From IMG/VR virus record IMGVR_UViG_3300047678_000169, positions 16,239 through 80,238 of that record: a stretch of 64,000 bases of DNA. The stretch is one strand, 5' to 3'. The stretch's first letter is position 1, and each line of letters starts with the position of its first letter. Both the position numbers and the translations under genes were made by a program. Source of the DNA: a virus. The notes under the pieces were generated by a model. That model saw only the letters and a program-made list of their open reading frames with translations. It did no database searches and was not told where the DNA came from. Of this stretch, positions 7,417 to 49,492 are shown piece after piece.

Positions 7417-8226
7417 TTAATAGTGTAAAGGTGCTCCCCAATTACTCTGCATAACGATTCCGCTGAATACTTGGGCCAAATGCTCTTCTTTGTATCCGAG
7501 TCTCTTAAATTCTTCGTATTGAGGCTTGTAATGGAAGAATTTGAACATCGGTTCGATTGGGTGAATTGGAATTGCACCACTTACCAACAACCATTCTCCA
7601 TACCAAGAGAATTCAGATGGAACAGTCTTGATAAGGTCTTCAAACTTCAATCCATTTGGCTCAAGATAGTTTACTTCAAGAGATTTCCAAACGATACCAC
7701 TCCAAATGATAGGACCTGGTCCAAAATCATAGAATCGTCCTTTGCGGTCAAATACATCCATGACCTTTTGGCGACATTCCTTGAAACTTCCATACGGGTC
7801 GAATCCAAGAACCGAAGTTTTGTTACATGTCCAAGTGAACAAATCTTTTTGCTCATGCATCACTGTGTATGGAATATCACTGGTTCCTTCCACGATAAAA
7901 TCGCTGACGTAAAATGGTCGGATAAAATATGAGTCACTGTCAATCATGACGTAGTTGGCACACAGACCAAGCTTCCAAAAGCTGCTCTTGACAATCTGTT
8001 GGGTTGTCCATGATTCGGCTTGAGAGTGGTCGTAGATGGATTCATCTTCAACTAAAATGTAGCCAGTGGTTCCCAATGAATGCTTGAATATTTCTATATC
8101 TGCTTTTGGAACTGAAATGTAGAATGGAATATTATCGTTGTTGTATTTGAAGATAGAATCGAGCAACACTTTAGCTCTTGAAACGTCTCCACGATATGAC
8201 TTACAGTATAGAACAATATTTTTCAT
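7417..8226 (-). CDS. DUF6492-like glycosyltransferase
   Basis: The 269-residue protein begins NIVLYCKSYRGDVSRAKVL and contains YVMIDSDSYFIRPF at about residues 91-104, where DSDS is a DXD-type metal site. The layout matches DUF6492 proteins found in polysaccharide clusters. A charged C-terminus follows (FFHYKPQYEEFKRLGY). It is tightly coupled to the FkbM methyltransferase gene by a 4-base overlap. Confidence 0.75.
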   Translation of the reverse strand: MKNIVLYCKSYRGDVSRAKVLLDSIFKYNNDNIPFYISVPKADIEIFKHSLGTTGYILVEDESIYDHSQAESWTTQQIVKSSFWKLGLCANYVMIDSDSYFIRPFYVSDFIVEGTSDIPYTVMHEQKDLFTWTCNKTSVLGFDPYGSFKECRQKVMDVFDRKGRFYDFGPGPIIWSGIVWKSLEVNYLEPNGLKFEDLIKTVPSEFSWYGEWLLVSGAIPIHPIEPMFKFFHYKPQYEEFKRLGYKEEHLAQVFSGIVMQSNWGAPLHY

Positions 8227-8927
8227 GTGCGAGGGAGCCAGTAGGTGTGGGTAAAATTGGTATCTTCTTGTAACATATTAAGATATTCGAGCTGAGTCAA
8301 TTCTTTTTCGTCCAGACTGTATATTTTATAGTTTATAGAATCGGGATATTCCGCCAGTGAATTAACTTGAAAACCGTAGCCCGGCAGAAATTTATTATGT
8401 CCCTCAATGAATATTATTGGTCGGTATGCTTCTATAACTTGTAAGGCTCCATTCAACACGGAAATTTCATACCCCTCCACATCAATTTTTATTACATCAG
8501 GACAAATGTTGTTCATTCGACAAAAATCATCGATTTTCATCAAAACAATTTTATCATTTCCTGGCAAAGACAATGCATGAAAATCATCCGAATTAAAATT
8601 AGCAATTCCGGTCTTGTCACCAACCAACATTTTTTGAGGATATATTTTCTTATCCTTATTAGCTAAATATAACTGTGTATAATGTGGCTGTTGAATGTGG
8701 CTTGGTTCAATGGCATAGCTTTCTCTCTTGTCATCTGCAAATAACAGACTGAATATTCCTAGTGCGGAGCCAACGTCAATTAAACACTTACAATTAGCCG
8801 TTTCTCTTAAAAACGCTTTCATTTCTTTGTTTTCTACAGAACCTTTGCTCAAACATCCATTGATGTTGTCAACATACGCATAACCGTATGGAACTTCAAA
8901 TGATTTTCCTTCAAACGAAGTTTTCAC
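8223..8927 (-). CDS. FkbM-family methyltransferase
   Basis: The 234-residue protein contains CLIDVGSALGIFSLLFA (SAM-binding motif I), then SYAIEPSHIQ and DVIKIDVEGYEISVLNG, the hallmark IDVEG segment of FkbM enzymes. These O-methylate sugars or small molecules using SAM. It overlaps glycosyltransferase genes on both sides, so a sugar methylation role is likely. Confidence 0.85.
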   Translation of the reverse strand: MKTSFEGKSFEVPYGYAYVDNINGCLSKGSVENKEMKAFLRETANCKCLIDVGSALGIFSLLFADDKRESYAIEPSHIQQPHYTQLYLANKDKKIYPQKMLVGDKTGIANFNSDDFHALSLPGNDKIVLMKIDDFCRMNNICPDVIKIDVEGYEISVLNGALQVIEAYRPIIFIEGHNKFLPGYGFQVNSLAEYPDSINYKIYSLDEKELTQLEYLNMLQEDTNFTHTYWLPRT

Positions 8928-9706
8928 AAACCCAATTCCTCTTTAAAATTATCAAATAACCAAGCAGTAACATCATTTCTGAATTTTACATCGCCCGTGA
9001 TATGAACCACGTTGGTTATGTCTTTGAAGGAAGTTTTGGGGTCTAATTTGCGACCCAATGCGTCAATCTGGCCGTCAAATAGAGTCCTTAACGTGTAATC
9101 CATGACATTGAACGAACGCGGTAGCAATGTGACAGGAAACTTGTTGTCTCTTACTGTAAAATTGAGAATGGTTTGGTCATCGGTAAAATCAGGAGATTTA
9201 TTAACTTCACACCACTTTTTATATTCTCTATGAAAAAATTCATATACCTCGTCCAAAGCCTTCTTATGTTTTTTACTGTATATGACCATACCACCATTGA
9301 TGTAATTTTCCCAAGAAACATCGGTTACTGTTGGAAACCAGTTTTCTCTAACCATTCTTATTGAACGGTTGAGTGCCGGTGCATATCCTCCGTCTGGACA
9401 ACCCCCGAAGTTGCCATCAACCATCTTGAAAAAATCTGGCGCCCAAGGCATAATGAATGTATCCCAATCAACCGCACATACTTGTTCAAATTCAATCTTG
9501 TTTTTCTCAAGTGCGTCTATAATCTTCATTCGCTGAAAGATTCCTGGAACCTTAGCTTGGTCTTCAAATTCCGTTTCAAGAAATATGAATTGATAACCAT
9601 GTTTTTCACACCACGCGTGCCACGAATAAGCGCATCTTTGAACAAATGGTTGATGTGGGGGCGTGGTTGGGCCACGCATTGCAGTCATACACACTACGTT
9701 TTTCAT
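8924..9706 (-). CDS. glycosyltransferase-like protein (GT8/GT34-type DXD)
   Basis: Start chosen at ATG 9706 because AAGGAG lies 8 bases upstream; an ATG at 9748 is possible but lacks this. The protein reads VCMTAMRGPTTPPHQPFVQ and then VCAVDWDTFIMPWAPDFF, where DWD acts as the DXD metal site after a Rossmann-like half. NGGMVIYSKKHK and DDQTILNF segments further resemble galactosyl/xylosyltransferase-type enzymes. It overlaps the FkbM gene downstream. Confidence 0.7.
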   Translation of the reverse strand: MKNVVCMTAMRGPTTPPHQPFVQRCAYSWHAWCEKHGYQFIFLETEFEDQAKVPGIFQRMKIIDALEKNKIEFEQVCAVDWDTFIMPWAPDFFKMVDGNFGGCPDGGYAPALNRSIRMVRENWFPTVTDVSWENYINGGMVIYSKKHKKALDEVYEFFHREYKKWCEVNKSPDFTDDQTILNFTVRDNKFPVTLLPRSFNVMDYTLRTLFDGQIDALGRKLDPKTSFKDITNVVHITGDVKFRNDVTAWLFDNFKEELGL

Positions 9707-10347
9707 ATTGGCATCTCCTTGAAAGTTCTTATCCAAGCCCATCTCCACAACTGTGCAATACTTTTATTATGTTTATCTTCTTCTGTCAAAGTTCTTCCCT
9801 TAGAGAATGTATTTCCATTCATCCTCTGTGATTGTAATTTTTTATGTTCTTCCGTCCAAGTTTTACCAAGAGAATATTTGTTACCTATAGCGCTTTTACT
9901 AAGCTTTTGTTTGTGTTCATCGGAAAGTTTTTTTCCAAGAGTAGCGGTGTTTCCCATTTTTGCTATTGATAATTTCTTCCTATATTCATCAGATTTCATC
10001 ATTGTCTGGAATTTTTCACTGTTCTTCATTCCATTAGATATTTTCTTCAATGTCTCTTTACAGACATTTGATGGGCTGTCCCCAGCTCCATAACAATTAT
10101 ATCCATTATGAACCGAATCTTTTTTATTTATCCAAAAATTTTCTCTACCTTTCAACCCAATTAAATTTGGTCGCTGTTCAAGTATATGAAAAACAAAATT
10201 TTCTATTCCATGCTTCATAATGGCTCTATAAAGTTTCCACTGTTTTGAAAATTTCAATTTCTTATAGTCTCCCCACCGTTTATGTATGTTCTTGCTCCTT
10301 CCAACATACCATTTATCAGGCTTGATTTTATTTTGTATTCCATACAC
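9703..10347 (-). CDS. GIY-YIG homing endonuclease with NUMOD3 repeats
   Basis: The GIY-YIG core is VYGIQNKIKPDKWYVGRSKN, followed by catalytic-domain residues and then at least three NUMOD3-like basic repeats (KLSIAKMGNTATLGKKLSD and similar). The open frame extends to ATG 10476, but its first 43 codons overlap out of frame with a separate small basic ORF (10358-10495). I therefore place the start at GTG 10347, just after that ORF stops. Free-standing homing endonucleases of this type are common in large phages. Confidence 0.8.
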   Translation of the reverse strand: MYGIQNKIKPDKWYVGRSKNIHKRWGDYKKLKFSKQWKLYRAIMKHGIENFVFHILEQRPNLIGLKGRENFWINKKDSVHNGYNCYGAGDSPSNVCKETLKKISNGMKNSEKFQTMMKSDEYRKKLSIAKMGNTATLGKKLSDEHKQKLSKSAIGNKYSLGKTWTEEHKKLQSQRMNGNTFSKGRTLTEEDKHNKSIAQLWRWAWIRTFKEMPI

Positions 10348-10357
10348 ACCAATGATT

Positions 10358-10495
10358 TCAGTCTTTAGATGCCCAATATCGTTGCATTTGAATTTTTTTA
10401 TATCGTTCTTTATTTCGAGCGTAGTGTTCTCTTTTCCACCGTTTTTCAGCCTCTTGTTTTTCTTTAGTAGATTCATATATTTTTTTTCGTCCCAT
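10358..10495 (-). CDS. small basic GRK-type peptide preceding an endonuclease (45 aa)
   Basis: ATG 10495 opens MGRKKIYESTKEKQEAEKRW and ends after RYWASKD. An almost identical layout (MGRK..., then a basic helix with RYW or YYRKNR) occurs at 30113-30265, also directly upstream of an endonuclease. A TATACTTATA element lies 13 bases upstream of the ATG. It is probably a short DNA-binding helical protein, or the detached N-terminal module of the endonuclease. No family is assigned. Confidence 0.5.
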   Translation of the reverse strand: MGRKKIYESTKEKQEAEKRWKREHYARNKERYKKIQMQRYWASKD

Positions 10496-10541: not shown

Positions 10542-11429
10542 TTATTGAACTATTTCTAACATTTCTTTTACAACGGATTTGGTTGTAAGATTCTTTCTCG
10601 TGTGGTCTAACAATTGATTGACGGTATCTTTATACCAATTCATATCTATTTTTGCGCTAGCAACTACCTCGTTGGATTTCAATATCAATTCCTTTGGAAA
10701 TTTCATCATTGTTTCTGGAGGACATTTTTCCAAGTCCGGAAAATATGGTATGCAGCCGTTCATAAGGATTTCTAGGTGTCTAAGCGTGTCCCACCCCCCC
10801 TTTTTGAAAGTCAAGCCAAAATATGATTTCTGATAGTCTTCGAAGTAAGGTTTCTCCTCATCGAAAATGTATGTTTCCAACTTTCCAGGTTGAACAGTTC
10901 CCCAATCTTGGGATTTCTCTGGAACAGAAGACAATACTTTTTCTTCTGGTATACAGAAATTAATAGGATGTAATCTATCAGTTGGAGAAGTATTCAATTC
11001 ACGTTTGAAAAGGTGACCGCCAACATCAATAAGACTATAATCAATTCCCTGATGGTCTTCTCCGTCGATGAAAATAATCTTACCCTTGTTGTAGACTTTC
11101 AATACTTCTTGTATGTAATCTTGACAACGAGTGATTGAGCCATAAACAACGTAATCAAAATACTTGGAACGAATTTTATCGACCAAATCTATTCTTAGAG
11201 AGTCGTCTATGTCTTCAAACGTTCCATACAACGTAAATCCTCTTCCATAGCTTCTACCTTGGTCTGGAACTCTCTCAGTCCAATACTGCTCCTTGTCTTT
11301 TTTATACATATGCCAAATTTTATTAGCATCAATTACATCAGCTCCAAAAAGAGAGCGCAGACCGTGAAACACCATGTCCGATTGAAAATCTGGTAAATCT
11401 CCCTTAGCTATGAATAGAATTTTCATCAT
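10542..11429 (-). CDS. glycosyltransferase-like protein (GT-B/exostosin-like)
   Basis: The 295-residue protein begins MMKILFIAKGDLPDFQSDMV. Its second half carries YFGLTFKKGGWDTLRHLEIL and MNGCIPYFPDL, the pattern by which GT-B glycosyltransferases (CgeB and exostosin-like) contact the donor. The first half is divergent. It starts one base before the stop of the preceding gene, in the glycan operon. Confidence 0.55.
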   Translation of the reverse strand: MMKILFIAKGDLPDFQSDMVFHGLRSLFGADVIDANKIWHMYKKDKEQYWTERVPDQGRSYGRGFTLYGTFEDIDDSLRIDLVDKIRSKYFDYVVYGSITRCQDYIQEVLKVYNKGKIIFIDGEDHQGIDYSLIDVGGHLFKRELNTSPTDRLHPINFCIPEEKVLSSVPEKSQDWGTVQPGKLETYIFDEEKPYFEDYQKSYFGLTFKKGGWDTLRHLEILMNGCIPYFPDLEKCPPETMMKFPKELILKSNEVVASAKIDMNWYKDTVNQLLDHTRKNLTTKSVVKEMLEIVQ

Positions 11430-12154
11430 TATATTATGGCTCTACCATGTGGTTTTGTCAATGAGAATTTAATATCATCTCTCACGGCCAAAGAAATTTG
11501 TCTAGCTGAAAAATAAGTGGCCAAGATATTCTCAGCGTTTTCAAAGTGGTGTGAATTTAGGTTGGTCACAAACCTTGGAACATATAGAAAACATTCACAA
11601 GCAGCAGTCATAACGTCCGGCCTTCCCCAAAATATTTGGTCAATGATTCCCATGTGGCCGGTTCTTACGATTAGATTTCCAATTTCAATGTCTTTGATAC
11701 TTGGTTCGACAATATCTTGAACAAGTTCCGTGTCGAATCGGAGCCTAACTACAGCATCATAGGTTGTTCCAGTTTCTGCTGAATAAACAATTCTCAGATG
11801 GTCAGCATCATATATCTTTCGAAACATCGAATTGTTTTGAGACAGTTGAGAACCATTTCTGGTTACTATACCCTTCCATTTGGTTTCTAATCTATTTACA
11901 GAACCATCGGTAGCTCTCTCGATGTGGAAATTTCCATGAACTGGCTTGTAGGTGGATAAAAGCCTATCGGTTACGTCGCTAAATTCAAGAGGCGTTGTTG
12001 CATGATGAACGAATTGGACGCCCACGCCACTCTCCACCCAACTGGATAAGAATACATCGCAATCATACTTATCCAACAAAAATTGTTTCAATGCTGGATA
12101 GGTTAATTTGTCCCCATCACGTAAATGACCAGATATACAGACAGCTATTTTCAT
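11429..12154 (-). CDS. ISGHLR-type putative glycosyltransferase
   Basis: The 241-residue protein begins KIAVCISGHLRDGDKLTYP and has a YDAVVRLRFDTELVQDI segment mid-protein. Both are typical of polysaccharide-cluster proteins annotated as glycosyltransferase-like with an SG.R start. IFWGRPDVMTAACE follows. It overlaps its neighbours by one to four bases. The activity is inferred only from family resemblance and context. Confidence 0.6.
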   Translation of the reverse strand: MKIAVCISGHLRDGDKLTYPALKQFLLDKYDCDVFLSSWVESGVGVQFVHHATTPLEFSDVTDRLLSTYKPVHGNFHIERATDGSVNRLETKWKGIVTRNGSQLSQNNSMFRKIYDADHLRIVYSAETGTTYDAVVRLRFDTELVQDIVEPSIKDIEIGNLIVRTGHMGIIDQIFWGRPDVMTAACECFLYVPRFVTNLNSHHFENAENILATYFSARQISLAVRDDIKFSLTKPHGRAII

Positions 12155-12648
12155 TGTAAATCTTTCTTGAGTTGTTCAACGTTTTTAGAGCATATTCCAT
12201 ATGCTTTCTTCATTTCTTCTCTAGACCACCCATTCTCCTCAGGCATTACTAATACACTTCTTGGTAAAGCAAATTTATAAGGATTGTTAACATGTGTCCA
12301 AACATAAGCTCGGCTGGTGATGGTATAGTCATCCTCTTGATGCCAAAAATAATGCATAGGATTGAATGTAGCCGTCAACCATCTTGGACACGATGAAAGG
12401 ACGCTCAAAGCATCAATGTTCTTACAATGGAGCCACAACCCATCCTTGAATATGAAATCACTTGGAACTTCATATTCAGGTTTGTCATGTCCTAAGAACC
12501 ACTTACCATCGATATATCGAATATCAACCTCGACATCATATCCGAGCATCAAAGCAAAGTTGACCCTTTCTGGATGATTTTCTAATCCAGAATTTGGCCC
12601 GGCTATCAATGCTCTGTGTGCGATTAATTTCAAGACTTGATTCCCCAT
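12151..12648 (-). CDS. GDPD/PI-PLC-like TIM-barrel protein, short
   Basis: LIAHRALIAGPNSGLENHPE at the start followed by GYDVEVDIRYIDGKWFLGHD matches the glycerophosphodiester phosphodiesterase pattern (HR, then E-x-D, then GHD). It has 165 residues, shorter than the usual ~250, so the second half of the barrel is reduced. It sits between the ISGHLR protein and the RuBisCO-like gene, with its first 19 bases inside the latter. A sugar-phosphate or phospholipid-type phosphodiester is a plausible substrate. Confidence 0.65.
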   Translation of the reverse strand: MGNQVLKLIAHRALIAGPNSGLENHPERVNFALMLGYDVEVDIRYIDGKWFLGHDKPEYEVPSDFIFKDGLWLHCKNIDALSVLSSCPRWLTATFNPMHYFWHQEDDYTITSRAYVWTHVNNPYKFALPRSVLVMPEENGWSREEMKKAYGICSKNVEQLKKDLQ

Positions 12649-13835
12649 TTGTTCACAGCAATACCATATTCCATTCCATATGCCTTATCGATAGATTGTC
12701 TGATGGCTCTTGCTCCGGCAACCGTTCCCATTGGGTGTCCGTGAATGGCTCCCCCAACGTTTGCCATATAATCTACTCCAAATCGTTTGTTGATACCTTC
12801 AATCAATCCGGCGTGCATACCACAGCTCAAAGCTGGGACTACGTTTCCATCACGAAGAACCTTTAAGGTCTTTTGCAAATCTTCTTCTGATTCGCTCATA
12901 TATCCACCCCACATTCCTGAATGGATTGTGTCAGCTCCCATCAAGGCAGCTAGCTGACAGATAATATCCCAAGCGATGCTGAAGCGGTGTGATTTGTCGG
13001 TGAATACTTTGTCGCCACTCTTTTGAAAGTGAAGATACAACGGGAGGTCCAATCTTCTAACTGAATTATATGCTCCAAGACCACACCAAACATTCAAGTG
13101 AATACCATTGCCACCAGCATCAGCAACAAATTTGGCTCTGTCCAAGATAGCGTGTGGGTCAGCATTGATGGCGGTGCAATAGACCACCTTGCGGCTTTGA
13201 TTGTTGAGCCAATTTGAAATCAATGGAACTCTTTCCTTTAAAGAACACACCGATGGGTTGGATAGAATTTCGTCTTCTTTGATAAAATCTACTCCACCAT
13301 CAACCAACTCCTTTACCATTTCCAATAGAATCTTTGGAGAAATTCCAGTTTTTGGTTTGATGATAGCTCCAAACAGAGGCTTGTCATATTGGCCTGTGTA
13401 GTTTCTCATTCCGGAGAAACCGTATTTTGGTCCTTTAAAATGCTTCTTGACGTTATCAGGAATATCTAAACCAATCAAACGACAGCCTTGAATTATGTCA
13501 ATATCCATTTGTCCTCCCATTAGTTGACACAATAGGTGAGAAATACCATCATCTTCCCAATCGGTGTTTGCTACTGGAAATCCAATTCTAATGTCTCCAT
13601 GTGTCTTCTTTCGTAGGTCATCTTCAGTAAATTCGGTTATAACAATACACGAATGATTTTCAAATAATTCATCTGTTTCGTGAATGCTACGCACGTTTGG
13701 ATTACCAACACTCTGACCAATGGCTAGGTTCCATGCTGCGTCTCTAAGATTTGAGTCGAGCGTAGAACGCAATTGATACGTGGCAATTACATAATCGTTC
13801 TGATTAACATCTGTCAGTGGTTTAAATAACTTCAT
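12630..13835 (-). CDS. RuBisCO-like protein (form IV-type, large-subunit fold)
   Basis: The 401-residue protein follows the RuBisCO large-subunit layout. FGAIIKPKTGIS has K160/K162 (equivalent to K175/K177). GGVDFIKEDEIL has K186, D188 and E189 (the carbamylated K201 and metal ligands D203/E204). H305 matches H327, S337 matches S379 and GG 361-362 matches G403/G404. In loop 6 (IHSGMWGGYMSES) Y312 replaces the catalytic K334, and Q271/K272 replace H294/R295, so CO2 fixation is unlikely. An enolase, isomerase or decarboxylase activity on a sugar or sugar phosphate, as in other RuBisCO-like proteins, fits better. Cupin, nucleotidyltransferase and SDR genes are adjacent, suggesting a nucleotide-sugar branch. 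Confidence 0.9.
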   Translation of the reverse strand: MKLFKPLTDVNQNDYVIATYQLRSTLDSNLRDAAWNLAIGQSVGNPNVRSIHETDELFENHSCIVITEFTEDDLRKKTHGDIRIGFPVANTDWEDDGISHLLCQLMGGQMDIDIIQGCRLIGLDIPDNVKKHFKGPKYGFSGMRNYTGQYDKPLFGAIIKPKTGISPKILLEMVKELVDGGVDFIKEDEILSNPSVCSLKERVPLISNWLNNQSRKVVYCTAINADPHAILDRAKFVADAGGNGIHLNVWCGLGAYNSVRRLDLPLYLHFQKSGDKVFTDKSHRFSIAWDIICQLAALMGADTIHSGMWGGYMSESEEDLQKTLKVLRDGNVVPALSCGMHAGLIEGINKRFGVDYMANVGGAIHGHPMGTVAGARAIRQSIDKAYGMEYGIAVNKWGIKS

Positions 13836-14145
13836 ATTTGTCGTTTGGTAGTGAGGGTGATTTGATGCACAAAACTTTACAGTCTTCGTGAAAAATTGGG
13901 TCGGCTACTTCACCAGCATCAATGGTGAATATGTCGCCTTTGGATAATAGCGTTCCACATATCGTCATACTTCCTTCTAAGAGGACGTTATGTTCAATAG
14001 CTACTTTGTGATAATGCTTGGGCCATTTTTCGTCCTTCTTATGGGTAAGAACACCAATTTCAACGTAGTCAGTCTTCCATATCGAAGGATTGAAATTTCC
14101 AACGAACCAACCACGATGCATATCACTTAATTTAAGAACTTTCAT
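13822..14145 (-). CDS. cupin-domain protein
   Basis: The 107-residue single-domain protein has KWPKHYHKVAIEHNVLLEGS followed by LLSKGDIFTIDAGE, the two halves of a small cupin barrel. The HYH and E residues could bind a metal. It overlaps the RuBisCO-like gene downstream by 14 bases and the nucleotidyltransferase upstream by 4. It may be an isomerase or epimerase, or a sensor, acting on the same sugar as its neighbours. Confidence 0.75.
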   Translation of the reverse strand: MKVLKLSDMHRGWFVGNFNPSIWKTDYVEIGVLTHKKDEKWPKHYHKVAIEHNVLLEGSMTICGTLLSKGDIFTIDAGEVADPIFHEDCKVLCIKSPSLPNDKYEVI

Positions 14146-14858
14146 TTTGAATTCTCAAGTTCTACAAACTTAGCTAAATCTTCGGGAGTTCCGACAGCGT
14201 GATGTTGTTCATTTGGGATGTGATATACACCAACGGAAACTCCTCTATTTATAAGATAGTTGTATGTTGGGCCAACGTAATACTCTCCATTTGGTGCGGT
14301 ATCTTTCAAACGAATCATTTCTTCGGCTGAAGACACAAAATCCCTTCCTTGTTTCCAATAATGAATTCCGTTGAGGGAGATGTTGCTAATAACCTTTTTC
14401 TCCTTTACCTCCACAACATATCCCGACCTATCCAACTTAGCATAACTGTTCTTTGGAGTTTCTGAAAAGTATGTGACGATTGTTCCTGAATTGTATCTAG
14501 CATTGTGTAGAAATAAATCAGAATTCCACCACATTACTTGGTCACAATTTGCCACTACTAACTCTTCATTGTTGTCGATTTTGTCCTTAAATAACAAAAC
14601 AGAAGACGCCGGGCCAGCGGTTACATAATCGATTTCAACAAACTCAGCATTTGGAAGTATTGAATGAACCACACTCTTGAGCTTGGAAGTGTATGCGTCC
14701 TTTCTGACAACGAAATGATACTTGCCAGGCAGATTCAATGACTTGATTGCCTTAACAATCATTGGTTCTCCATTAATGTCAATTAGTGGCTTTGGGATAG
14801 AATATCCTGCGTCAGCGAAACGTGAGCCGATTCCGGCCATTGGTATTACGATGTTCAT
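14142..14858 (-). CDS. sugar-1-phos­phate nucleotidyltransferase-like protein (NTP_transferase family)
   Basis: Start at ATG 14858 gives a 4-base overlap with the upstream gene. NIVIPMAGIGSRFADAGYS is the glycine-rich nucleotide-binding start, followed by IPKPLIDINGEPMI (the signature KP lysine). LVVANCDQVMWW supplies the metal-binding aspartate. With 238 residues it is close to RmlA/LicC-type enzymes, which activate a sugar or choline phosphate with NTP. It probably works with the RuBisCO-like and cupin proteins. Confidence 0.85.
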   Translation of the reverse strand: MNIVIPMAGIGSRFADAGYSIPKPLIDINGEPMIVKAIKSLNLPGKYHFVVRKDAYTSKLKSVVHSILPNAEFVEIDYVTAGPASSVLLFKDKIDNNEELVVANCDQVMWWNSDLFLHNARYNSGTIVTYFSETPKNSYAKLDRSGYVVEVKEKKVISNISLNGIHYWKQGRDFVSSAEEMIRLKDTAPNGEYYVGPTYNYLINRGVSVGVYHIPNEQHHAVGTPEDLAKFVELENSK

Positions 14859-15556
14859 ACTTGCTTTGGTGGGTATTTGTGCTTCACTTGATTCCAATAG
14901 TTAATCCAAGATGCTGCTGGTGGGTGGAGTTTGTGATAGAATAATTCATCATCTGGTAAATTGTTGTAGTCCATATACCATCCGTAGTGATGTGCCTGAT
15001 ACAAACCACCAGTTCTGATGGAATTGGTGGAATAGGCTCCGTGAAAATTTGGGCGATTGAGGGCGAATGTCGTGTCGATAGTGGCACGATAAACATCTGG
15101 CTTCAGTGGTTCTTTCCAAAAAGTTGATTCATGAACGAGGACTTGTTCTTTGAGGGGATAGTGGTCTGGCAAATCATCAAGCTTCAATCCAAAACCAACC
15201 TTGTCAGGATTGAATTCTTGCATGATGTTGTAGAAATGCTCTAAGAAATTCTCAGGACAGTCTTTTGCTGGAATTACATCATTGTCGGTTAAAACATTAT
15301 AACTTCCCGTAAACATGGCTCCAAGATAGGTTCTTTCAAACACCAAAGGTCCAGATTCTCCATGTTCAAATCGATGAACGGTGAACATCTTACCATCATA
15401 CGCCTTTAAAAAATCAAGAAGAGGTTGATAGGTAGAACCACAGTCAGCTATATGGAGATTCTTATACCCTCTACTTGTCAATGCTTCCAATTGTTGAACC
15501 ATACAGTTCAATCGATTGTGACAGACAATGATAATGGGAATTTCTTTGAAGTTCAT
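14855..15556 (-). CDS. GT-A-like glycosyltransferase
   Basis: Start at ATG 15556 (ATGA overlap). It begins FKEIPIIIVCHNRLNCMVQQ, continues LHIADCGSTYQPLLDFL, and has SYNVLTDNDVIPAKDCPENF with DND in the DXD position. These are the key features of GT-A enzymes. It has 233 residues and no membrane segment. It lies within the tightly overlapping glycan operon. Confidence 0.75.
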   Translation of the reverse strand: MNFKEIPIIIVCHNRLNCMVQQLEALTSRGYKNLHIADCGSTYQPLLDFLKAYDGKMFTVHRFEHGESGPLVFERTYLGAMFTGSYNVLTDNDVIPAKDCPENFLEHFYNIMQEFNPDKVGFGLKLDDLPDHYPLKEQVLVHESTFWKEPLKPDVYRATIDTTFALNRPNFHGAYSTNSIRTGGLYQAHHYGWYMDYNNLPDDELFYHKLHPPAASWINYWNQVKHKYPPKQV

Positions 15557-16362
15557 GTAAGAATATCGAAGTGTAATCCATTTTCTTTCTCCCATTCCTT
15601 TGTGGTGATATTCAAATCAACAGGAGAAAAATGGCTTACACCATGTTTGACATAAGGATATAAACCAAAACGGGAAGAAAGCCAAGGAAAAACTACTTCT
15701 CCATACCATCTATTTTTGATGCGTGTCTTAAAATAAGAATCTGGAGCTTTTTTTAGAAACCAAGACACAACGCTACCTTTGATAACATAAAAAGTCTCAA
15801 CGTAAGACCAATTAACATGAGTATATTTTAGTTCGTCAAAAGGTATGTTCTGAACGATTGGCATTTCTCCGTGGTCGAACTCTAAATGGTCAAGAGTCTT
15901 CCATTGAGTATGTCCGTCAGCCGATTGGCCAACCCCATAATGTCCATAGACACCGATGGAAGGATTTCTATCCAACAGTGCTTCAATTTCTGTTCTTTTG
16001 GATAGAAATTCATTGAGATAGTATTCGAATCTATCCTGACGGTCATTTACTCCACCTTTGGTATGGGCGAACCACACGTTCTTATATGGTTCCTTTGTCC
16101 TCATTCTCATTGCTTTTAAGGCAGCTTGAGTTCCAGATGCGTCTGACTCACAATATAATTCCCTCGGCACCACTGATACCACAAGATTTTGGTGTTTGGA
16201 GCTCAATATTTTGTTATAGACTTCATTGCAAGTGTCTGGATTGATTCCTACGAATACATCAGCATCGGCGAAAGTGGTTTCCAATACCTCTAACCACCTA
16301 TCAATCATCCAAGCTTTGGAAGAGTTGAAAATAGAAACGGAAAATACGACAGCAGATTTCAT
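15553..16362 (-). CDS. polysaccharide-cluster protein, putative glycosyltransferase (HTKGG type)
   Basis: The 269-residue protein carries NVWFAHTKGGVNDRQDR at about residues 97-113. The HTKG motif is seen in rhamnan-synthesis F-like and related transferases. The C-terminal YPWLSSRFGLYPY-like region is aromatic. It overlaps the SDR gene by 4 bases. Function is inferred from the motif and neighbourhood. Confidence 0.55.
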   Translation of the reverse strand: MKSAVVFSVSIFNSSKAWMIDRWLEVLETTFADADVFVGINPDTCNEVYNKILSSKHQNLVVSVVPRELYCESDASGTQAALKAMRMRTKEPYKNVWFAHTKGGVNDRQDRFEYYLNEFLSKRTEIEALLDRNPSIGVYGHYGVGQSADGHTQWKTLDHLEFDHGEMPIVQNIPFDELKYTHVNWSYVETFYVIKGSVVSWFLKKAPDSYFKTRIKNRWYGEVVFPWLSSRFGLYPYVKHGVSHFSPVDLNITTKEWEKENGLHFDILT

Positions 16363-17282
16363 TGAATGTGGTGTTTTAAGTCTTCAACCGAAGCAGCTAT
16401 TCCAGCATCCATTTCAAATATTGGGCTCCATCCGGTATCTATCCACAATTTGTAATTGCTGATGTGGGTGCTTTTAACGTCCCAATCTGGAGGTTTACAA
16501 TATTCGATTGTAATTTCCGTATTTGTTTCTTTGGATACTTGCCTAATAATATCGTTTATAGAGTAAGACCTTCCGCTACATACATTGTAGGTTCCGACCA
16601 AATCATCTTCAAGAATAGCCTCAATGGCTCGAATAAAATCTAAGTAATAGATAAAATCTTTGGTCGCCCTGCCATCTCCCCAGATTCTTAAAGTTTCATG
16701 TTTAATGGCTGCTTGTATAACCATTGGTATGATGCCCTGTATTTGATTTCTACCATTTGGAATGTATTTTCCATATGGATTGGTAATTCTCAAATTCAAA
16801 TGGTCCGGAGCTTGAGACACTATTCTTTCAGCAAATAGTTTTGCTTGAGCATACCAACCAATCGGATTCATATATGTCAGAGATTCATCTTTCTGGACAT
16901 ATAGTTCAGACCCATCGGGAAAAATTGTTCTAGCAATTGCTTCGCCATAAACGGCACCGGTGGAAAAGAATACAAGTTTGGTTCCACTTTCGGTGGCGTG
17001 TTGAGTTAACAATCTGACATTGTGATAATCCTCTGAGGTGTTCCAAGGACTTCTTTTCATTTCGGCTATCGATGGAACGGTGGTCCATGATAAATGAAAC
17101 ACATAATCAGATTTTTTTAGATAATCGGAGTTGAACAATAGTTTAACATCTTCATAACCTTTGCCGGGCGTCCTTGAAAAAAGAGTGACTTCATATTTCT
17201 GTGGGTCGAGATATGATTTGATTAGTGTTGCTAGGCGGCCACGGCCACCTGTAACAAATACTCTCTTCTTTCTTTCAGCCAT
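16359..17282 (-). CDS. NAD-dependent epimerase/dehydratase (extended SDR)
   Basis: KRVFVTGGRGRLATLIKSYL is the NAD(P)-binding TGxxGxxG start. NPIGWYAQAKLFAERIV holds the catalytic YxxxK (GWYAQAK). Later segments (LRITNPYGKYI, RATKDFIYYLDFIRAI) match UDP-sugar epimerase/dehydratases. It converts one nucleotide-sugar to another. The start is taken at ATG 17282; an in-frame ATG at 17297 would overlap the upstream stop. Confidence 0.9.
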   Translation of the reverse strand: MAERKKRVFVTGGRGRLATLIKSYLDPQKYEVTLFSRTPGKGYEDVKLLFNSDYLKKSDYVFHLSWTTVPSIAEMKRSPWNTSEDYHNVRLLTQHATESGTKLVFFSTGAVYGEAIARTIFPDGSELYVQKDESLTYMNPIGWYAQAKLFAERIVSQAPDHLNLRITNPYGKYIPNGRNQIQGIIPMVIQAAIKHETLRIWGDGRATKDFIYYLDFIRAIEAILEDDLVGTYNVCSGRSYSINDIIRQVSKETNTEITIEYCKPPDWDVKSTHISNYKLWIDTGWSPIFEMDAGIAASVEDLKHHIQ

Positions 17283-17283
17283 G

Positions 17284-17886
17284 TTAGTATTTAACAATCT
17301 TTACCAATTTGTCGTTGTTGAAGAATTCTACGCTCTTTATGTTTTCAGATACAAATTTATTCTCTTCGTAAGATAGATGTGGGCTAGCAAATGAATTGGT
17401 TGTTTCCCAATTTCTCAACAAGAAGTCGGTTCTCTCAGCAGCTGGATACAAGGGACAGGTGTGAAGGTCTTCGATGAAATAAATTCCTCCAGACTTCAAG
17501 GCCTTCAATAGAACAAAGAGGCTGACCTGTTGGTGTGGCATTTGGTGTGCTCCATCATCAACGATGAAATCAAGAGGTTCCATATCAGGAATCATACTAT
17601 TCAAGTGCTCTCTATTGGTTTGGTCTAGAATATAGACCTTTTCACAAATACTCTTGTCAAAGAATGAAGAACAATCATTAATATCCATTCCCCAGAGCTT
17701 CATTTCTGGATTATATTCTTTCCACATTCTCAAAGAATCTCCATGCCAAATCCCAATTTCAAGAAGTTTGACTGGGCCTTCACTTGGGACATATTTCTCA
17801 TACGTCAATGTATAGGAATGTTTTTCAAACCATTCCGTTCCTTTGTCTGCGTGGTGCTTGTTAGCAATTTCTGTTAAATTTCTCAT
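17284..17886 (-). CDS. class I SAM-dependent methyltransferase
   Basis: The 200-residue protein has VKLLEIGIWHGDSLRMW (motif I) and LDFIVDDGAHQMPHQQ, a pattern common in sugar O-methyltransferases of the TylF/MycF group, where the DD pair binds metal. GGIYFIEDLHTC follows. It probably methylates a hydroxyl on a glycan or nucleotide-sugar. It is coupled to the FkbM gene upstream. Confidence 0.8.
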   Translation of the reverse strand: MRNLTEIANKHHADKGTEWFEKHSYTLTYEKYVPSEGPVKLLEIGIWHGDSLRMWKEYNPEMKLWGMDINDCSSFFDKSICEKVYILDQTNREHLNSMIPDMEPLDFIVDDGAHQMPHQQVSLFVLLKALKSGGIYFIEDLHTCPLYPAAERTDFLLRNWETTNSFASPHLSYEENKFVSENIKSVEFFNNDKLVKIVKY

Positions 17887-18590
17887 GTTAGTAGTATTGT
17901 GTAGTAGTCTTGAGTTTTTCTCATATAGTCGTCAGTCACTTCTGAGCCTGTGGATGGACCAGAAACAATGAGTCCTCTTAAATAATGTGACCTTAATTCA
18001 ATCAAGTGTTCGATGTTTTCTTGAAAGTTTGGCATCATTGGTGGATGGATGGATAATAGAGTTGGAGGAATCTCATTCCTCAAGAATATAGATTTAGCTA
18101 CAGCATATTCCCCACCCTCAATATCAATCTTTACAAAGTTAATATTACCAGCTTCTTCAATTATAGAACTGACATAATCATCTAAGGTCATACACTCCGT
18201 TTCAAATGATAGCTCAGGCCTGAAATTTCCAACTCTTGTTACACTTTCTCCAAGTCTATTGTCGGAGCCCAACGTCATCTTTCCTTTGTAATCAGATAGA
18301 GCAAATTGATTCACTATGATGTTGGTGAATCCATTTAATGCTATGTTCTTGAACAGTTCTTCTTGAGCAACTGGGTCTGGTTCAAAGCAGTGAACTTTCT
18401 TGGCTAGTTGGGAGCCGTATAAGACGGTTGGACCTATCCACGCCCCAATGTCCAGATAACTTCTGTCTTTTACCAAGTGTTCATCAAAAATCTTATAAAT
18501 TTCCGATTCCCATCCGGAGTTTCCCCAAAATGGTCCGTTCGGAGTTCCTTCTGTAACATTAAATGTGAGATTGTTTCTTTTTACGTTCAT
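17883..18590 (-). CDS. FkbM-family methyltransferase (second copy)
   Basis: Start at ATG 18590 gives an ATGA overlap. RSYLDIGAWIGPTVLYGSQL is motif I and INFVKIDIEGGEYAVAKSI is the FkbM IDIEGGE segment. It is 235 residues long. It is not a close duplicate of the FkbM protein at 8223-8927, so the two probably modify different positions. Confidence 0.85.
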   Translation of the reverse strand: MNVKRNNLTFNVTEGTPNGPFWGNSGWESEIYKIFDEHLVKDRSYLDIGAWIGPTVLYGSQLAKKVHCFEPDPVAQEELFKNIALNGFTNIIVNQFALSDYKGKMTLGSDNRLGESVTRVGNFRPELSFETECMTLDDYVSSIIEEAGNINFVKIDIEGGEYAVAKSIFLRNEIPPTLLSIHPPMMPNFQENIEHLIELRSHYLRGLIVSGPSTGSEVTDDYMRKTQDYYTILLT

Positions 18591-19282
18591 AGGCCCATAT
18601 TTTCTTTTTGTGACCAATTCTTCAAATAGAATTCGTTTTGTTTTGTTTGTCTTTCGATGGTCTTATCGTGTATCAGAGAGAAATTAACATCAATTGGCAA
18701 TTCCGCAACAACCTTGGCTCCGGAGATTCTTTCATGTAGCTTTCTCTCCCACTTAATATCAGATGTATTTCTATAGATTCTGCCCTGTTTGTCTCCTGAG
18801 TTCCAGTTGATAATTGGTAGACCAGGAAACTCTTCCAAGAACGATACATGCCACCCCCATCTTTTAGCATCGGCCTCGGTCAAACCTCTGACAATATTAA
18901 CTCTTGGAACCCTATACAACTCTACAGATGGATTCGATTCCAATATCTCATGTATGTTCTCAATCAAAAAATCAGAAGGATATTCGTCAGCGTCTATTTG
19001 AAATACCCAACGATTTTTACAGTTGAGGGTTCCGAAGTTTTTATGTGCTCCAAAATCCCCATCTAAGTTGTGCTTGATTACTCTTCCCAATTTGGAAGAT
19101 GTGCTGAACAATGGGTGGAAAGCCAGTATCTTCTTAGTCTCTTCATTTGTTGAATTATCATCAACAATGATGATTTCATCGTCGGTGTTAGCAACGGTGT
19201 GATATAGTTTTTCAAGAAGCCGACTCAATTCGTCGGCTTCGTTGTGAACCGTTATCAAGTAAGAGATACTTGACTTAGCCAT
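18587..19282 (-). CDS. glycosyltransferase family 2
   Basis: ISYLITVHNEADELSRLLEK followed by EIIIVDDNSTNEETKKIL is the GT2 start. NRWVFQIDADEYPSDFLIEN contains DADE, the metal-binding DXD. SFLIHDKTIERQTKQNEFYLKN-type C-terminal residues are seen in cyclopropane/LPS GT2 enzymes. It is the gene directly downstream of groEL, 3 bases away, so it is co-transcribed with the chaperonin genes. Confidence 0.9.
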   Translation of the reverse strand: MAKSSISYLITVHNEADELSRLLEKLYHTVANTDDEIIIVDDNSTNEETKKILAFHPLFSTSSKLGRVIKHNLDGDFGAHKNFGTLNCKNRWVFQIDADEYPSDFLIENIHEILESNPSVELYRVPRVNIVRGLTEADAKRWGWHVSFLEEFPGLPIINWNSGDKQGRIYRNTSDIKWERKLHERISGAKVVAELPIDVNFSLIHDKTIERQTKQNEFYLKNWSQKENMGL

Positions 19283-19285: not shown

Positions 19286-20902
19286 TTACATTCCTTCTTG
19301 TGGAATCTGCTGTTGAATTTGCTCGGCCTCATCTTCAATGTCAGCAATCATACATTCGGTGGTCAATAATAGACCAGCGATGGATGCAGCGTTTTGAAGA
19401 GCGGTGCGCGTGACCTTTGTTGGGTCAACAACTCCGGAAACAACCAAGTCTTGATAAACATCGGTTGCGACATTGTAACCGTAATTTCCCGTGTTCTTCA
19501 ACACTTCACTTACTACAACGTCTCCACTCTTTCCTGCATTTGAACACAGCATCTTGATTGGGTGTTCGATGGCTCTACGAACAATTTGAGCTCCAATTTG
19601 TTCATCGCCTTCTAACTTGAGAGCGTCAATAACCGAAGCACATCTCAATAGAGCAACTCCTCCACCCGGAACAATTCCCTCTTCAACTGCGGCACGTGTT
19701 GCGTGCAAGGCATCTTCAACACGGTCTTTCTTTTCTTTCATTTCGGATTCGGTGGCTGCGCCCGTGTGGACAACTGCAACTCCGCCAGTTAGTTTGGCAA
19801 GGCGTTCTTGAAGCTTCTCACGCTCGAAGTCAGAAGTCGATTTCTCAATTTCATTCTTAATGAGCTTAATACGAACTTCAATGGCAGCTGGTTTGCCCGT
19901 TCCGCCGATGATGGTGGTGCTATCCTTTGTTACAATAATCTTCTTAGCCTGACCCAAATCAGCAAAGGTTAATTTGTCAAGATTGAGCCCAAGCTCAGAG
20001 GTAATCAATTTTGCTCCAGTGATGGTCGCAATGTCCTCGAGGGTAGCACGGCGTCTATCACCAAATCCAGGTGCCTTAACAGCACATGAAACGAAAGCTC
20101 CACGAACTCTGTTTACAACCATAAAGGCGAGAGCATCACCCTCAACATCTTCAGCTATAACAAGGAGCTTCTTTCCCATCTTAGCAATTTCTGTAAAGAA
20201 TTTGGCCAATGGGGCTATGGTGGTGAGCTTCTTTTCGATAACCAGAACCAAAGCGTCATCAAGAACAGCTTGTTGGGTTTCTTGGTCTGCAAAATAAGCG
20301 GAAATGAATCCCTTATCGAACTGCATACCCTCAACGACCTCAAGAGTCGTATCCATTGAGCTAGCTTCTTCAACGGTGATTGTTCCATCCTTACCAACCT
20401 TATCCATGGCGTCGGCAATAATGTTACCAATTGAGGTATCCCAGTTGGCGGAGACGGTGGCGACCTGGCGAATCTCTTCGCTGCTGCTTACCTTTTTAGA
20501 GATTTTGGCTAATTCTGCTACAGCAGCTACTACAGCCTTGTCGATACCACGCTTCAAATACACCGGATTTGCGCCAGCGGCTACGGTCTTTAGACCTTCA
20601 CGATAGATTGCGGATGCAAGAACCGTTGCGGTGGTTGTTCCGTCTCCGGCCAAATCGTTGGTCTTGGAAGCAACTTCTTTTACCATTTGAGCACCCATGT
20701 TCTCAAACTTATCTTTGAGTTGAATAGACTTAGCAACCGTAACTCCGTCTTTGGTAATCAATGGAGAACCAAATCCACGTTCGATGGCGACATTGCGACC
20801 CTTGGGCCCCAATGTTACACTGACCGCATTTGATAGGGTTGTTACTCCAGCCAAGATTTTATTTCTGGCCTCTGCACTAAATAGGATTTCTTTTGATTTC
20901 AT
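19286..20902 (-). CDS. groEL: 60 kDa chaperonin GroEL
   Basis: The 538-residue protein has [33 protein letters not shown] (ATP site), [15 protein letters not shown] and [14 protein letters not shown], all classic GroEL signatures. The C-terminus ends QQQIPQEGM rather than in a GGM repeat tail. It forms the folding chamber for ATP-driven protein folding in the cytoplasm. It follows groES (20905-21198) with a 2-base gap, the normal groESL order. A phage copy would assist folding of virion or replication proteins. Confidence 0.98.
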
Positions 20903-37722: not shown

Positions 37723-38127
37723 TGGTGGACCTGCGGGGAGTTGAACCCCGGTGTTTCATAAATTGCTCATCAGACATATACAAGCGTTAACACGGTGGAT
37801 ATGATTGTGGTTAGTAGTGTGCTCCACAAAAATTAGAGTCAGTAGTTTCTTCGTTGTTACAGTCTCACTTTCTCACAACGAACATATCAGCAGAGGTTGA
37901 CGTATTGACCCACTTATCTGCGTGGTGGAATACGGACTGCTCAGTTTATTAAGCAGCGACAGCCATAGCGGCTCCAACGTTCTTCGCCTTGCGGAGAAGT
38001 GTTAGAACATTTAGCTTAGCAAGATTTCTCTTAGCATTTAGTTTTTGTAATCAGGATTATGCAGGATGTTTACCACCTGCGCTTGCGTTCCGAGCTCAAC
38101 CCATAAAGTCGAATCCTGGACAGGCCC
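37723..38127 (-). ncRNA. ssrA: tmRNA (transfer-messenger RNA)
   Basis: The 5' end reads GGGCCTGTCCAGGATTCGAC, close to the conserved tmRNA start. The 3' end has T-arm CGGGG-TTCAACT-CCCCG and then CAGGTCC-A-CCA, which pairs with 5' GGGCCTG as the acceptor stem. At nt 93 (38035) a reading frame opens with GCT and ends at TAATAA (37946-37951), encoding a 28-residue tag that ends MAVAA, in line with protease-degron tags. The tag is longer than the 10-residue E. coli type. It would rescue stalled ribosomes during infection. Confidence 0.92.
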
Positions 38128-39765: not shown

Positions 39766-40980
39766 TTAAAAACCTATTGATGTGATTGAAAATACTTGTG
39801 CCTGACTTAGGCCGCTTCCCACCGCAGCGGGAGCCCACGATGCAGATACCGCGAATGACGCGGTGGCTTGAATACTGGAACTTAAAGACAAATTTATCGT
39901 AGCATTGGTAGTAGGATTAGTTACGCTGGCTATAATTCCACTGGCCGATACAATTGATATAGAAGATACTCCACCACCTACACCACCAGGTGCCCAAGAC
40001 GCACTGACAGCAAACTGAGACCACGATGCAGTTCCAAACAGTGAGCCGGTGATTTGTGGACTGTTAACAATTGAAGAAGTTATCTGCGTGCTGTTAAACG
40101 AACTTGATAGAGCTACGAGCCTGTTTGAAAATGAAGCAGAGGTTGTTGCTACTGCTATATTTGTTACTGTGAAAGATGAACTTAATGGTGCTATCGAAGC
40201 ACTCAAAGCCTGCAATGAACCGGATACAATTATTAGGCTTGAGCTTACTGGTATAACTGAGGAGCTGTTCGTGTTTACGACTGTGGTTAGAGCCACGACA
40301 GTTGTAGTAAACGATGAACTTGTTGCCGTGGCGCTTGTAGAAAATGAACTTGATAGCGTTCCAAGTCTCGTTGAGAAGGATGCTGATGAAACGACGAAAG
40401 AAGATGATACGGCAGTTAGCGACGTATTGGTTGCGACATTTGTAACAGTCAACGAAGAGCTTAATGGTGCAATCGATGCGCTTAGAGCTTGCAATGAACC
40501 AGAAAAAATAATCAAACTGGAACTGACAGGAATTAACGACGAACTGTTTGTGTTGACAGTAGAAGTCAAGGCTACAATAGTCGTCGTCAAAGATGAACTT
40601 AGTGGAGCAATTGATGCACTTAGAGACTGAAGCGAGCTTGAGATTACAATCAAACTCGAGCTAACAGGAATCAACGAAGAGCTATTCGTGCTGACCGTTG
40701 ATGTGAGGGATACAATTGTCGTAGTAAATGAAGAGCTGTTCGTGGTATCCGATGTTGCGAATGATGAAGAATATGTCAGTGCGTTTAAGGCGAACGATGC
40801 CGTTGTTGCCATAGACGATGTTCCAAAGCCAGGAGTTATTCCCGCTGCCGATTCCGCCTGCACTCTTAATTGATTGTTTGCATCTAAAAATAAGCTAGAC
40901 GTTGTTACGCCATCTGCGTTCATCAACGAGAGAACCGGGCCGTTTTTTTGGTCAAATAGAATTTCTGAAATATTGCTCAT
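39766..40980 (-). CDS. repetitive tail-fibre protein (404 aa)
   Basis: It is built of Ser/Thr-rich repeats (SSSLIPVSSSLIVISSSLQS-type, at least three copies) and ends with GTASW...SASWAP segments shared with the neighbouring 1,251-aa protein. It probably forms a trimeric fibre stalk. A TATAAGTAT element precedes its ATG. The repeats make it prone to length variation. Confidence 0.75.
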   Translation of the reverse strand: MSNISEILFDQKNGPVLSLMNADGVTTSSLFLDANNQLRVQAESAAGITPGFGTSSMATTASFALNALTYSSSFATSDTTNSSSFTTTIVSLTSTVSTNSSSLIPVSSSLIVISSSLQSLSASIAPLSSSLTTTIVALTSTVNTNSSSLIPVSSSLIIFSGSLQALSASIAPLSSSLTVTNVATNTSLTAVSSSFVVSSASFSTRLGTLSSSFSTSATATSSSFTTTVVALTTVVNTNSSSVIPVSSSLIIVSGSLQALSASIAPLSSSFTVTNIAVATTSASFSNRLVALSSSFNSTQITSSIVNSPQITGSLFGTASWSQFAVSASWAPGGVGGGVSSISIVSASGIIASVTNPTTNATINLSLSSSIQATASFAVSASWAPAAVGSGLSQAQVFSITSIGF

Positions 40981-43900: not shown

Positions 43901-44732
43901 GTGGACTGTTAACAACAGAAGCGGTTATTTGAACTGTGGACAATGAGGTATTCAACGCTCCAATTATATTGGAGAATGATGCCGATGCCACTACAAGATT
44001 GGTCAGTCCCGTTCCAGCTGATGCGCTTAGTGAATTAACAGTGGAATTGAAAGATGCACTATTCCCTGTTATTTGAACAGATAAAGAACTTGATAAAGGA
44101 GCTATTGAAGCACTAACAGATTGAACTGAGCCTGATACAATGACTAAGCTTGAACTTATTGGTATTAACGAAGAACTGTTTGTATTGACAGTTGATGTCA
44201 GTGTTACAATCGTTGTAGAAAAAGATGAACTGATGGTCGTATCAGTTGCGCTAAGCGACGATGAATAAGACTGTGCGTTTAAAGCAAAAGAAGAGGTAAC
44301 TGAATTCTGTGACCAGGATGATGTTCCAAATAAAGAACTTGTTGGTGAAAGACCGGCACTTGGGGCCCACGACGCTGATATAGAATTTCTCGACCAAGAA
44401 GCTGTATCAATATAAGAAGCCGTTTGAGCCTGTAGGCTGTTTAAAGAAAGTCCAGCTATTACAGCGTAGGACGCAGTATCACTGACACTTGCTATTACCG
44501 AATATGAGGCACTTACAGCCAATTGTGCTTTGATAGCATAAGAGGCTGTTGAGACAGACATTGAGCTTGTCTGGGAACTAGCCAGAAGCGAACTTGATGG
44601 TGTATAACTGAACACCATGTTTCCAACTCCGTCCAAAACATAAGAATTAGAGCCAGTGTCTAATCTCTGTAGGATATTTTGGTAACTTTCAGAGACATGT
44701 TGGAGAGTTAAGTCTTTATCAGGAAAATTCAT
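40977..44732 (-). CDS. giant repetitive tail-fibre protein (1,251 aa)
   Basis: Two repeat classes dominate. One is a 27-30 residue unit around KELADSGSLLALSSSY, at least six copies. The other is a longer unit containing GSLFGTASW, SASWAPTSGT, GVSGTVQNATTTPAI and PTDVTSSF, at least three copies. Between them lies a globular insert (about residues 600-700, GGNAVIYLGGQDLNGLLIIG) and a C-terminal receptor-like domain after GSQSVLSVNTFNEI. It is a long homotrimeric fibre or appendage protein likely to touch the host surface. Confidence 0.8.
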   Translation of the reverse strand: MNFPDKDLTLQHVSESYQNILQRLDTGSNSYVLDGVGNMVFSYTPSSSLLASSQTSSMSVSTASYAIKAQLAVSASYSVIASVSDTASYAVIAGLSLNSLQAQTASYIDTASWSRNSISASWAPSAGLSPTSSLFGTSSWSQNSVTSSFALNAQSYSSSLSATDTTISSSFSTTIVTLTSTVNTNSSSLIPISSSLVIVSGSVQSVSASIAPLSSSLSVQITGNSASFNSTVNSLSASAGTGLTNLVVASASFSNIIGALNTSLSTVQITASVVNSPQITGSLFGTASWAQNSVSASWAPTSGTTTTGSVTSVSVTTNAGVSGTVANSTTAPAISITLGAITPTSISTGQITGSIISGSQFTGSLFGTASFSQNAQTYSSSFSTSDTTNSASFTTTISSLTANVTTNSSSLLALSSSYQTTSASFTSKELADSGSLLTLSSSYVVSSASFSTRVFKDSGSLLALSASYLASSASFTAKELADSGSLLALSSSYVASSASFSTRIFTDSGSLLTTSASLLSLSSSYQTTSASFTEKELADSGSLLLVSSSLVVSSASFSSRLVALSSSFNSSQITGSIISGSQITGSVFGTSSYSAEAAISSKADPTGIFRVERTSAGGNAVIYLGGQDLNGLLIIGCSAGASNGVIGISNSKGFVIQRGNYGYGFITGLADANASADTVITSPGAGNLQFGNADAAAAVPQTMSMQSVVAGTSDTQGRDFVLAGSRGTGLGGGGSVIIKIAPVGPTGTAQNTLSAIATFSSSYITILSGSLSVSTSITASSALITQITGSVFGTSSWAQNSISASWAPTSGTSATGSVTNVSVNTSNGVSGTVQNATTTPAITVTLGRIVPTDVTSSFSGNITGSLFGTASWSVNAISASWAPTAGTSATGSVTSVSVATANGVSGTVQNATTTPSITLTLGRITPTDVTSSFSGSLDGTASFSSNALSYSSSLTSTISNLTSNVTTNSSSLLSVSASFVASSASFSTRIFTNSGSLLALSSSYQTTSASFTAKELADSGSLLALSSSYQATSASFTARELADSGSLLTVSSSFVNSSASFSSRLVALSGSFNSTQVTSSFINSSQITGSLFGTASWAANATASGFYTAIGTGSQSVLSVNTFNEINFSNILTPSPAWTHSTSSGQFTCSLGGLYEVTLTTYMQKTGSGTLVGATRLVLDNLEISGSYSAFSFTANNVPQPLVSKVIIPVLSGSALRAEFAGNSGSMQVIPPPSIATSHSKPSVSILISKL
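40989..40997 (-). promoter_or_regulatory. ATACTTATA element upstream of fibre gene 39766-40980
   Basis: Same element, minus strand, 9 bases before ATG 40980, inside the end of the upstream gene. Confidence 0.4.
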
Positions 44733-49400: not shown

Positions 49401-49408
49401 GGGATGAT

Positions 49409-49484: not shown

Positions 49485-49492
49485 AAATGCCG

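Follow-up and report, generated by a model that had tools for sequence, protein, structure and literature searches.

A clade of RuBisCO-like proteins carried by uncultured phages and linked to sugar-phosphate nucleotidyltransferases in surface-glycan gene clusters

The DNA analysed here (the window) is a stretch of 64,000 nucleotides, positions 16,239 to 80,238 of the 80,238-bp IMG/VR virus record IMGVR_UViG_3300047678_000169. At window positions 12630-13835, the minus strand encodes a RuBisCO-like protein (RLP) of 401 aa with an ATG start. The start of this gene overlaps by 14 bp a gene for a 107-aa cupin (13822-14145, minus strand; phrog_24762), which is preceded by a sugar-phosphate nucleotidyltransferase gene (14142-14897, minus strand; phrog_3980) that probably begins at ATG 14858 rather than at TTG 14897. 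The end of the RLP gene overlaps by 19 bp the gene of a short GDPD-like protein of 165 aa (12151-12648, minus strand; phrog_34507), followed downstream by an operon gene with a glycosyltransferase-like context (11429-12154, minus strand; phrog_13607). The wider glycan operon, also on the minus strand, includes genes for an SDR nucleotide-sugar epimerase (16359-17297), a family 2 glycosyltransferase (18587-19282) and an FkbM-type methyltransferase (8223-8927). A gene for a GIY-YIG/NUMOD3 homing-type endonuclease lies within the operon (9703-10476, minus strand), and a GroEL (Cpn60) gene is located directly upstream of the glycan genes (19286-20902, minus strand).

The source record carries genes for a phage-type Dda-like helicase, exonucleases, an endonuclease and an RNA ligase, in addition to glycosyltransferases. 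No terminase was found on this record, which is a fragment; of 14 long contigs bearing the RLP (108-173 kb), four have a terminase gene, and T4-type genes for structure and replication occur on RLP contigs. Origin of the contig from a host chromosome is unsupported, given its place among IMG/VR virus records and its phage-type replication and RNA ligase genes. The phage glycan operon proposed in a preliminary description of this DNA is well supported. Elsewhere in the window, a phage tmRNA gene (Rfam RF00023) and over 30 genes for tRNAs were found at 37723-38127 and 49105-63459 (minus strand), two of the Rfam tRNA matches being unusually long (56365-56495, 131 nt; 58005-58151, 147 nt). A protein of 1251 aa (40977-44732, minus strand) has no Pfam or PHROGs match and adjoins two large ORFs without a Pfam match.

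The RLP matches the catalytic domain of the RuBisCO large subunit (PF00016) with an E-value of 2e-39 and a score of 136 bits, the cutoff being 30.1, and its match to the RuBisCO N-terminal domain is below threshold (0.016). In the PDB, it is closest in sequence to chains of RuBisCOs and RLPs (1e-34 to 1e-38). The AlphaFold2 model built on a 24-sequence alignment has a mean pLDDT of 93.0 and a pTM of 0.91, and the best PDB folds for it are form III RuBisCOs with TM of 0.88-0.89. The earlier observation of a large-subunit layout, for which modelling had been suggested, is confirmed. The scores against curated families are much lower than the cutoffs: 179.5 vs 497 and 176.6 vs 438 bits for the form I-III families, 162.6 vs 409 and 125.8 vs 513.6 for the MtnW NCBIfam models, and 150.4 vs 700 for OiaX. 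Judged by sequence and predicted fold, the protein is a form IV-type RLP, yet neither MtnW nor OiaX.

Alignment with RuBisCO reproduced all residue calls of the preliminary description. The predicted enolisation base K160 (codon 13356-13358, minus strand) corresponds to K175 of RuBisCO. In the KEDE motif (13269-13280, minus strand), K186, D188 and E189 correspond to K201, D203 and E204; the putatively carbamylated lysine and the predicted Asp/Glu metal ligands are therefore kept, and E187 replaces D202. The residues Q271-K272 (13020-13025, minus strand) stand in place of H294-R295, and Y312 (12900-12902, minus strand) in place of the loop-6 lysine K334. Further substitutions, absent from the earlier list, are G40 for E60, N45 for T65, G108 for N123 and C338 for G380. 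No compensating loop-6 lysine was found in the RLP in the alignment with reference RuBisCOs and RLPs.

Twelve positions (I158, K160, K162, K186, E187, D188, E189, Q271, Y312, S337, C338 and G339) are invariant across 101 near-full-length homologues of the clade with identities down to 38%. Tyrosine thus replaces K334 in 101/101 of them. E60G and N123G were found in 19/19 members placed on the reference alignment, and the GG phosphate-binding motif is retained in the clade. Q294, Y334 and C380 are each absent from the 25 RuBisCOs and RLPs used as references, in which the K334 position holds Lys, Ser or Arg. By these residues the clade is distinct within the RuBisCO-like proteins and is marked by one invariant fingerprint. 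The R295 position is less constrained (Lys in 67 members, Ser in 33 and Arg in one), as is the H327 position (His in 59, Gln in 42). The second phosphate site is therefore degraded, with Ser in a third of the members at the former position and Gln in about 40% at the latter. This variation suggests that members differ in the far end of their substrate, and the substrates may differ within the clade.

The dN/dS ratio was about 0.01-0.10 in almost all close RLP pairs, with one exception of 0.23 and a few pairs with saturated dS; between the window RLP and its 94% relative it was 0.018. The RLP gene is under strong purifying selection. The invariant fingerprint, the low dN/dS and the gene overlaps with the cupin and GDPD-like genes mean that the pattern is not a chance one.

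Peptide-pattern scans revealed RLP relatives on at least 240 IMG/VR stretches, from which 80 loci were kept, and at 21 GTDB loci. The GTDB carriers include SAR11, Crocinitomicaceae, other Alphaproteobacteria, Azospirillum, Legionella, Elusimicrobia, Verrucomicrobiia, Sphingobacteriales and archaea. Cellular carriage is rare: in whole-genome scoring, in which clade members reached 488-649 bits vs at most 250 for other RuBisCOs, carriers made up 4/140 genomes of the Legionella order and 2/297 of the SAR11 order, query genomes included. The sole score between the two ranges, 363 bits, belongs to a contig-cut clade member. None of the 50,697 INPHARED phage records yielded a relative at E <= 1e-5, and no RuBisCO fold was found in the viral structure library BFVD, where the best matches were generic barrels (TMq ~0.4).

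In the reference tree, all references come together with an ultrafast bootstrap of 100%, separate from the RLP clade, and 3nwr and related RLPs lie outside the clade; the IV-Photo proteins (1tel, 1ykw) and 2qyg were matched by sequence or fold only. The proposed separation from forms I-III is thus recovered in the phylogeny. In a larger FastTree, the phage group arises after lineages from Legionella, Azospirillum, Elusimicrobia, Verrucomicrobia and archaea have split off, and three SAR11 RLPs and that of a short Crocinitomicaceae contig are nested among phage sequences, several of the nodes having modest support. The early-branching cellular lineages and the nested sequences suggest that the RLP originated in cells, was captured by phages and in some cases returned to cells, with the modest support of several nodes applying to this order of events as well.

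Across about 102 loci, the most frequent same-strand neighbours of the RLP gene are the nucleotidyltransferase (55 and 34 loci in its two large phage clusters), the GDPD-like gene of about 150 aa (74 loci) and the cupin (60 loci). In GTDB, 19 of 21 loci have the nucleotidyltransferase beside the RLP, and the other two lie on contigs 3.1 and 3.7 kb long. Azospirillum and Elusimicrobia possess all four genes in the order GDPD-like, RLP, cupin, nucleotidyltransferase, unlike the phage order; inheritance of a fixed gene order therefore does not by itself account for the set. Other neighbours include methyltransferases, epimerases, GDP-mannose dehydratase, UDP-galactopyranose mutase and glycosyltransferases. 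Thus, the RLP is near-obligately linked to a sugar-phosphate nucleotidyltransferase within surface-glycan clusters of phages, some bacteria and archaea, and the trio of these two with the cupin turns up again both in further phages and in cells belonging to several phyla. Among the partners named in the preliminary description, the nucleotidyltransferase, cupin and GDPD-like genes hold for most phage loci; the SDR gene, four genes away and found at only 17 loci, does not belong to the conserved set. Nor are the cupin and the GDPD-like gene specific to the RLP, as both accompany the nucleotidyltransferase where the RLP is missing.

The Legionella RLP-nucleotidyltransferase pair (L099-L101, L113-L116) adjoins a divergent LicD gene (PF04991, 6e-44). 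LicD proteins transfer phosphoryl-alcohols from CDP-alcohols. This link is not general, since LicD lies beside the RLP only in Legionella. In a second SAR11 lineage (L090, L092-L096), two different nucleotidyltransferases flank the RLP, and a GDPD-like gene is also present. The solved relatives of the nucleotidyltransferase give no pointer to its nucleotide specificity, since its profile matches enzymes of the sugar-1-phosphate, IspD-like, inositol and phosphocholine types equally. The short GDPD-like protein has no match to the Pfam GDPD domain; its invariant residues are H11, R12, E23, N24, E40, D42, H54 and K76, and the best fold match of its model (pLDDT 91.5) is the GDPD 2o55, a weak one (E 0.021, prob 0.97, TMq 0.54).

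Cultured Synechococcus phages lacking the RLP possess homologues of the nucleotidyltransferase that are 28-43% identical to it across 90% or more of its length. These are fused to DHBP synthase (5e-65) in S-SKS1, to RpiB (4e-32) in Bellamy and SynMITS9220M01 and to a HAD phosphatase in S-CAM9 and B23. The deposited names miss the fusion, being '3,4-dihydroxy-2-butanone 4-phosphate synthase' in S-SKS1 (L144:5040-6467) and 'phosphatase' in Bellamy (L145:6992-8149). When IMG/VR was sampled by the nucleotidyltransferase and not by the RLP, a fused or adjacent HAD/KdsC/RpiB/RibB module accompanied 0/29 RLP-linked nucleotidyltransferase domains (RLP within 2.2 kb) vs 53/60 of those without the RLP (Fisher test, p = 4e-17, the counts not being phylogenetically independent). 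After dereplication the values were 0/8 vs 26/31 (p = 2e-5). With all sampled loci pooled, four dereplicated RLP loci do show a HAD-type module that is part of, or next to, a nucleotidyltransferase in the vicinity. On the tree of the nucleotidyltransferase, where many internal supports are modest, parsimony gives 13 changes in linkage to the RLP vs a shuffled mean of 36, and the linkage was therefore gained or lost repeatedly. In one phage group (L213-L226), the nucleotidyltransferase follows a KdsC-like HAD gene, and the RLP, cupin and GDPD-like genes are absent nearby.

The mutual exclusion of the RLP with RpiB, DHBP synthase and HAD phosphatases points to an interchangeable precursor-making slot. 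The RLP would fill this slot, making a precursor for an NDP-activated product used on glycans. The cupin and the GDPD-like protein, which persist without the RLP, would then belong to the nucleotidyltransferase step or later.

RuBisCO enolises ribulose-1,5-bisphosphate, and RpiB and DHBP synthase act on ribulose-5-phosphate through enediols. The metal site, the base lysine and the GG motif are kept in the RLP and E60, N123, H294 and K334 are gone, which argues for enolisation without CO2 addition. On these grounds it is somewhat more likely than not that the RLP performs a non-carboxylating enolising step on a ketose phosphate, feeding the synthesis of an NDP-X for glycans by the nucleotidyltransferase. 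The RLP would enolise the ketose phosphate via the retained metal site and K160, and then isomerise, epimerise or cleave it with no CO2 added. The substrate would most likely be a pentulose phosphate from the ribulose-5-phosphate metabolism of the host; HAD sugar phosphatases also fill the slot, however, so that the slot need not imply pentulose chemistry. The phosphorylated product would be activated as NDP-X by the nucleotidyltransferase, X or X-phosphate would be attached to a surface glycan of the virion or host, and the cupin and GDPD-like protein may act on X or its phosphodiester. The RLP substrate, the nucleotide and the final glycan are what we infer from this arrangement. The earlier proposal that the operon makes an unusual sugar fits the glycan cluster with its nucleotidyltransferase; it is still drawn from gene context, and the SDR invoked for it is outside the conserved set. 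A more tentative proposal, which we regard as somewhat short of probable, is that a virus-borne branch of the RuBisCO superfamily catalyses a reaction so far undescribed among RLPs. Its product would be a novel phosphorylated unit (a ketose, a branched compound or a small polyol), activated by a dedicated nucleotidyltransferase and incorporated into surface glycans of phage or host, via a plug-in slot open also to RpiB, DHBP synthase and HAD enzymes.

The RLP could fill the same slot by breaking a bond (decarboxylation, retro-aldol or formate loss, oxygenation) and so produce a phosphorylated unit that is branched or has fewer carbons. In S-SKS1 relatives the slot is taken by DHBP synthase, which removes carbon from ribulose-5-phosphate, OiaX is an RLP able to decarboxylate, and an oxygenase RLP is mentioned in a review (PMC10173188). 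However, the OiaX-type RLPs compared keep K334, H294 and R295, which the present clade lacks, and the window RLP is far under the OiaX cutoff (150 vs 700); this type of reaction is considered rather unlikely. Action of the RLP after activation, on a nucleotide-linked or glycan-linked product, is improbable. The gene order does not fix the position of the RLP in the pathway and SDR-type enzymes commonly act on NDP-sugars, but the enzymes replaced by the RLP (RpiB, DHBP synthase, HAD) act on free sugar phosphates, and the GG phosphate-binding motif is kept.

There is only a small chance that the gene is an auxiliary metabolic gene for an MtnW-like enzyme of methionine salvage or an OiaX-like enzyme of apionate catabolism. 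Both families are detectable homologues with a metal site in common, but the scores of 126-163 vs 409-514 (MtnW) and 150 vs 700 (OiaX), the position of the RLP outside both families on the tree and the context speak against both, which were rejected: the surroundings are those of glycan synthesis, the reference loci differ, and salvage, kinase and transport genes were not recognised nearby. Slighter still is the chance of a non-catalytic remnant or structural protein, for which the loss of several RuBisCO residues could speak; the metal/carbamate site is invariant in 101 sequences and dN/dS is about 0.01-0.10. Least probable of all is a working RuBisCO boosting CO2 fixation of the host. The RuBisCO fold, the metal site and the best fold matches to form III would suit it, but K334Y and H294Q in 101/101 members, E60G and N123G in all those placed, the tree, the heterotrophs among the carriers and the gene context, in which neither a small subunit nor phosphoribulokinase was recognised among the neighbours, led to its rejection. 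The non-carbon-fixing, form IV-type role proposed at the outset is well supported, with a tree position apart from forms I-III.

The invariant active site, the near-obligate partner and the replacements with known reactions make the substrate of the RLP directly testable. The RuBisCO fold is common in uncultured phages, yet was found in no INPHARED isolate or BFVD entry, and a metagenomic gene called as viral 'rbcL' can belong to glycan synthesis instead of carbon fixation. No description of phage RLPs or of the RLP-nucleotidyltransferase cassette was found in the open-access literature, most subscription journals being outside it.

RLPs are a standard example of reuse of the RuBisCO fold. To our knowledge, few RLP reactions are known, and those known serve mainly salvage or catabolism. 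MtnW (IV-YkrW; 2,3-diketo-5-methylthiopentyl-1-phosphate enolase) resembles the phage RLP in enolase-type use of the site, Gly in place of E60 and loss of K334, but keeps H294, carries Pro in place of R295 and Ser in place of K334, and acts in methionine salvage. OiaX (3-oxo-isoapionate-4-phosphate decarboxylase) is an RLP of similar length acting on a sugar-acid phosphate; unlike the phage RLP, it keeps K334, H294 and R295, is catabolic and adjoins a four-carbon acid sugar kinase, whereas no sugar-acid kinase was recognised among the neighbours of the phage RLP. The cyanophage fusions (S-SKS1 gp42, Bellamy gp206, S-CAM9 gp181) share with the window a homologous nucleotidyltransferase in glycan clusters and, at several loci, nearby GDPD-like and/or cupin genes; they differ in lacking the RLP and having another precursor enzyme fused to the nucleotidyltransferase. 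The IV-GOS proteins (Global Ocean Sampling RuBisCO homologues) are likewise marine metagenomic RLPs of unassigned function. The 2007 GOS survey reported 65 RuBisCO homologues of unplaced type (PMC1821046), and the IV-GOS group appears in a review (PMC10173188); these may be the same clade as the phage RLPs. The form IV RLPs as a class have in common with the phage clade the RuBisCO fold, the metal/carbamate site and the loss of carboxylation residues, but those compared lack the fingerprint Q294, Y334 and C380, and it is the glycan-cluster context and the carriage by phages that also set the clade apart.
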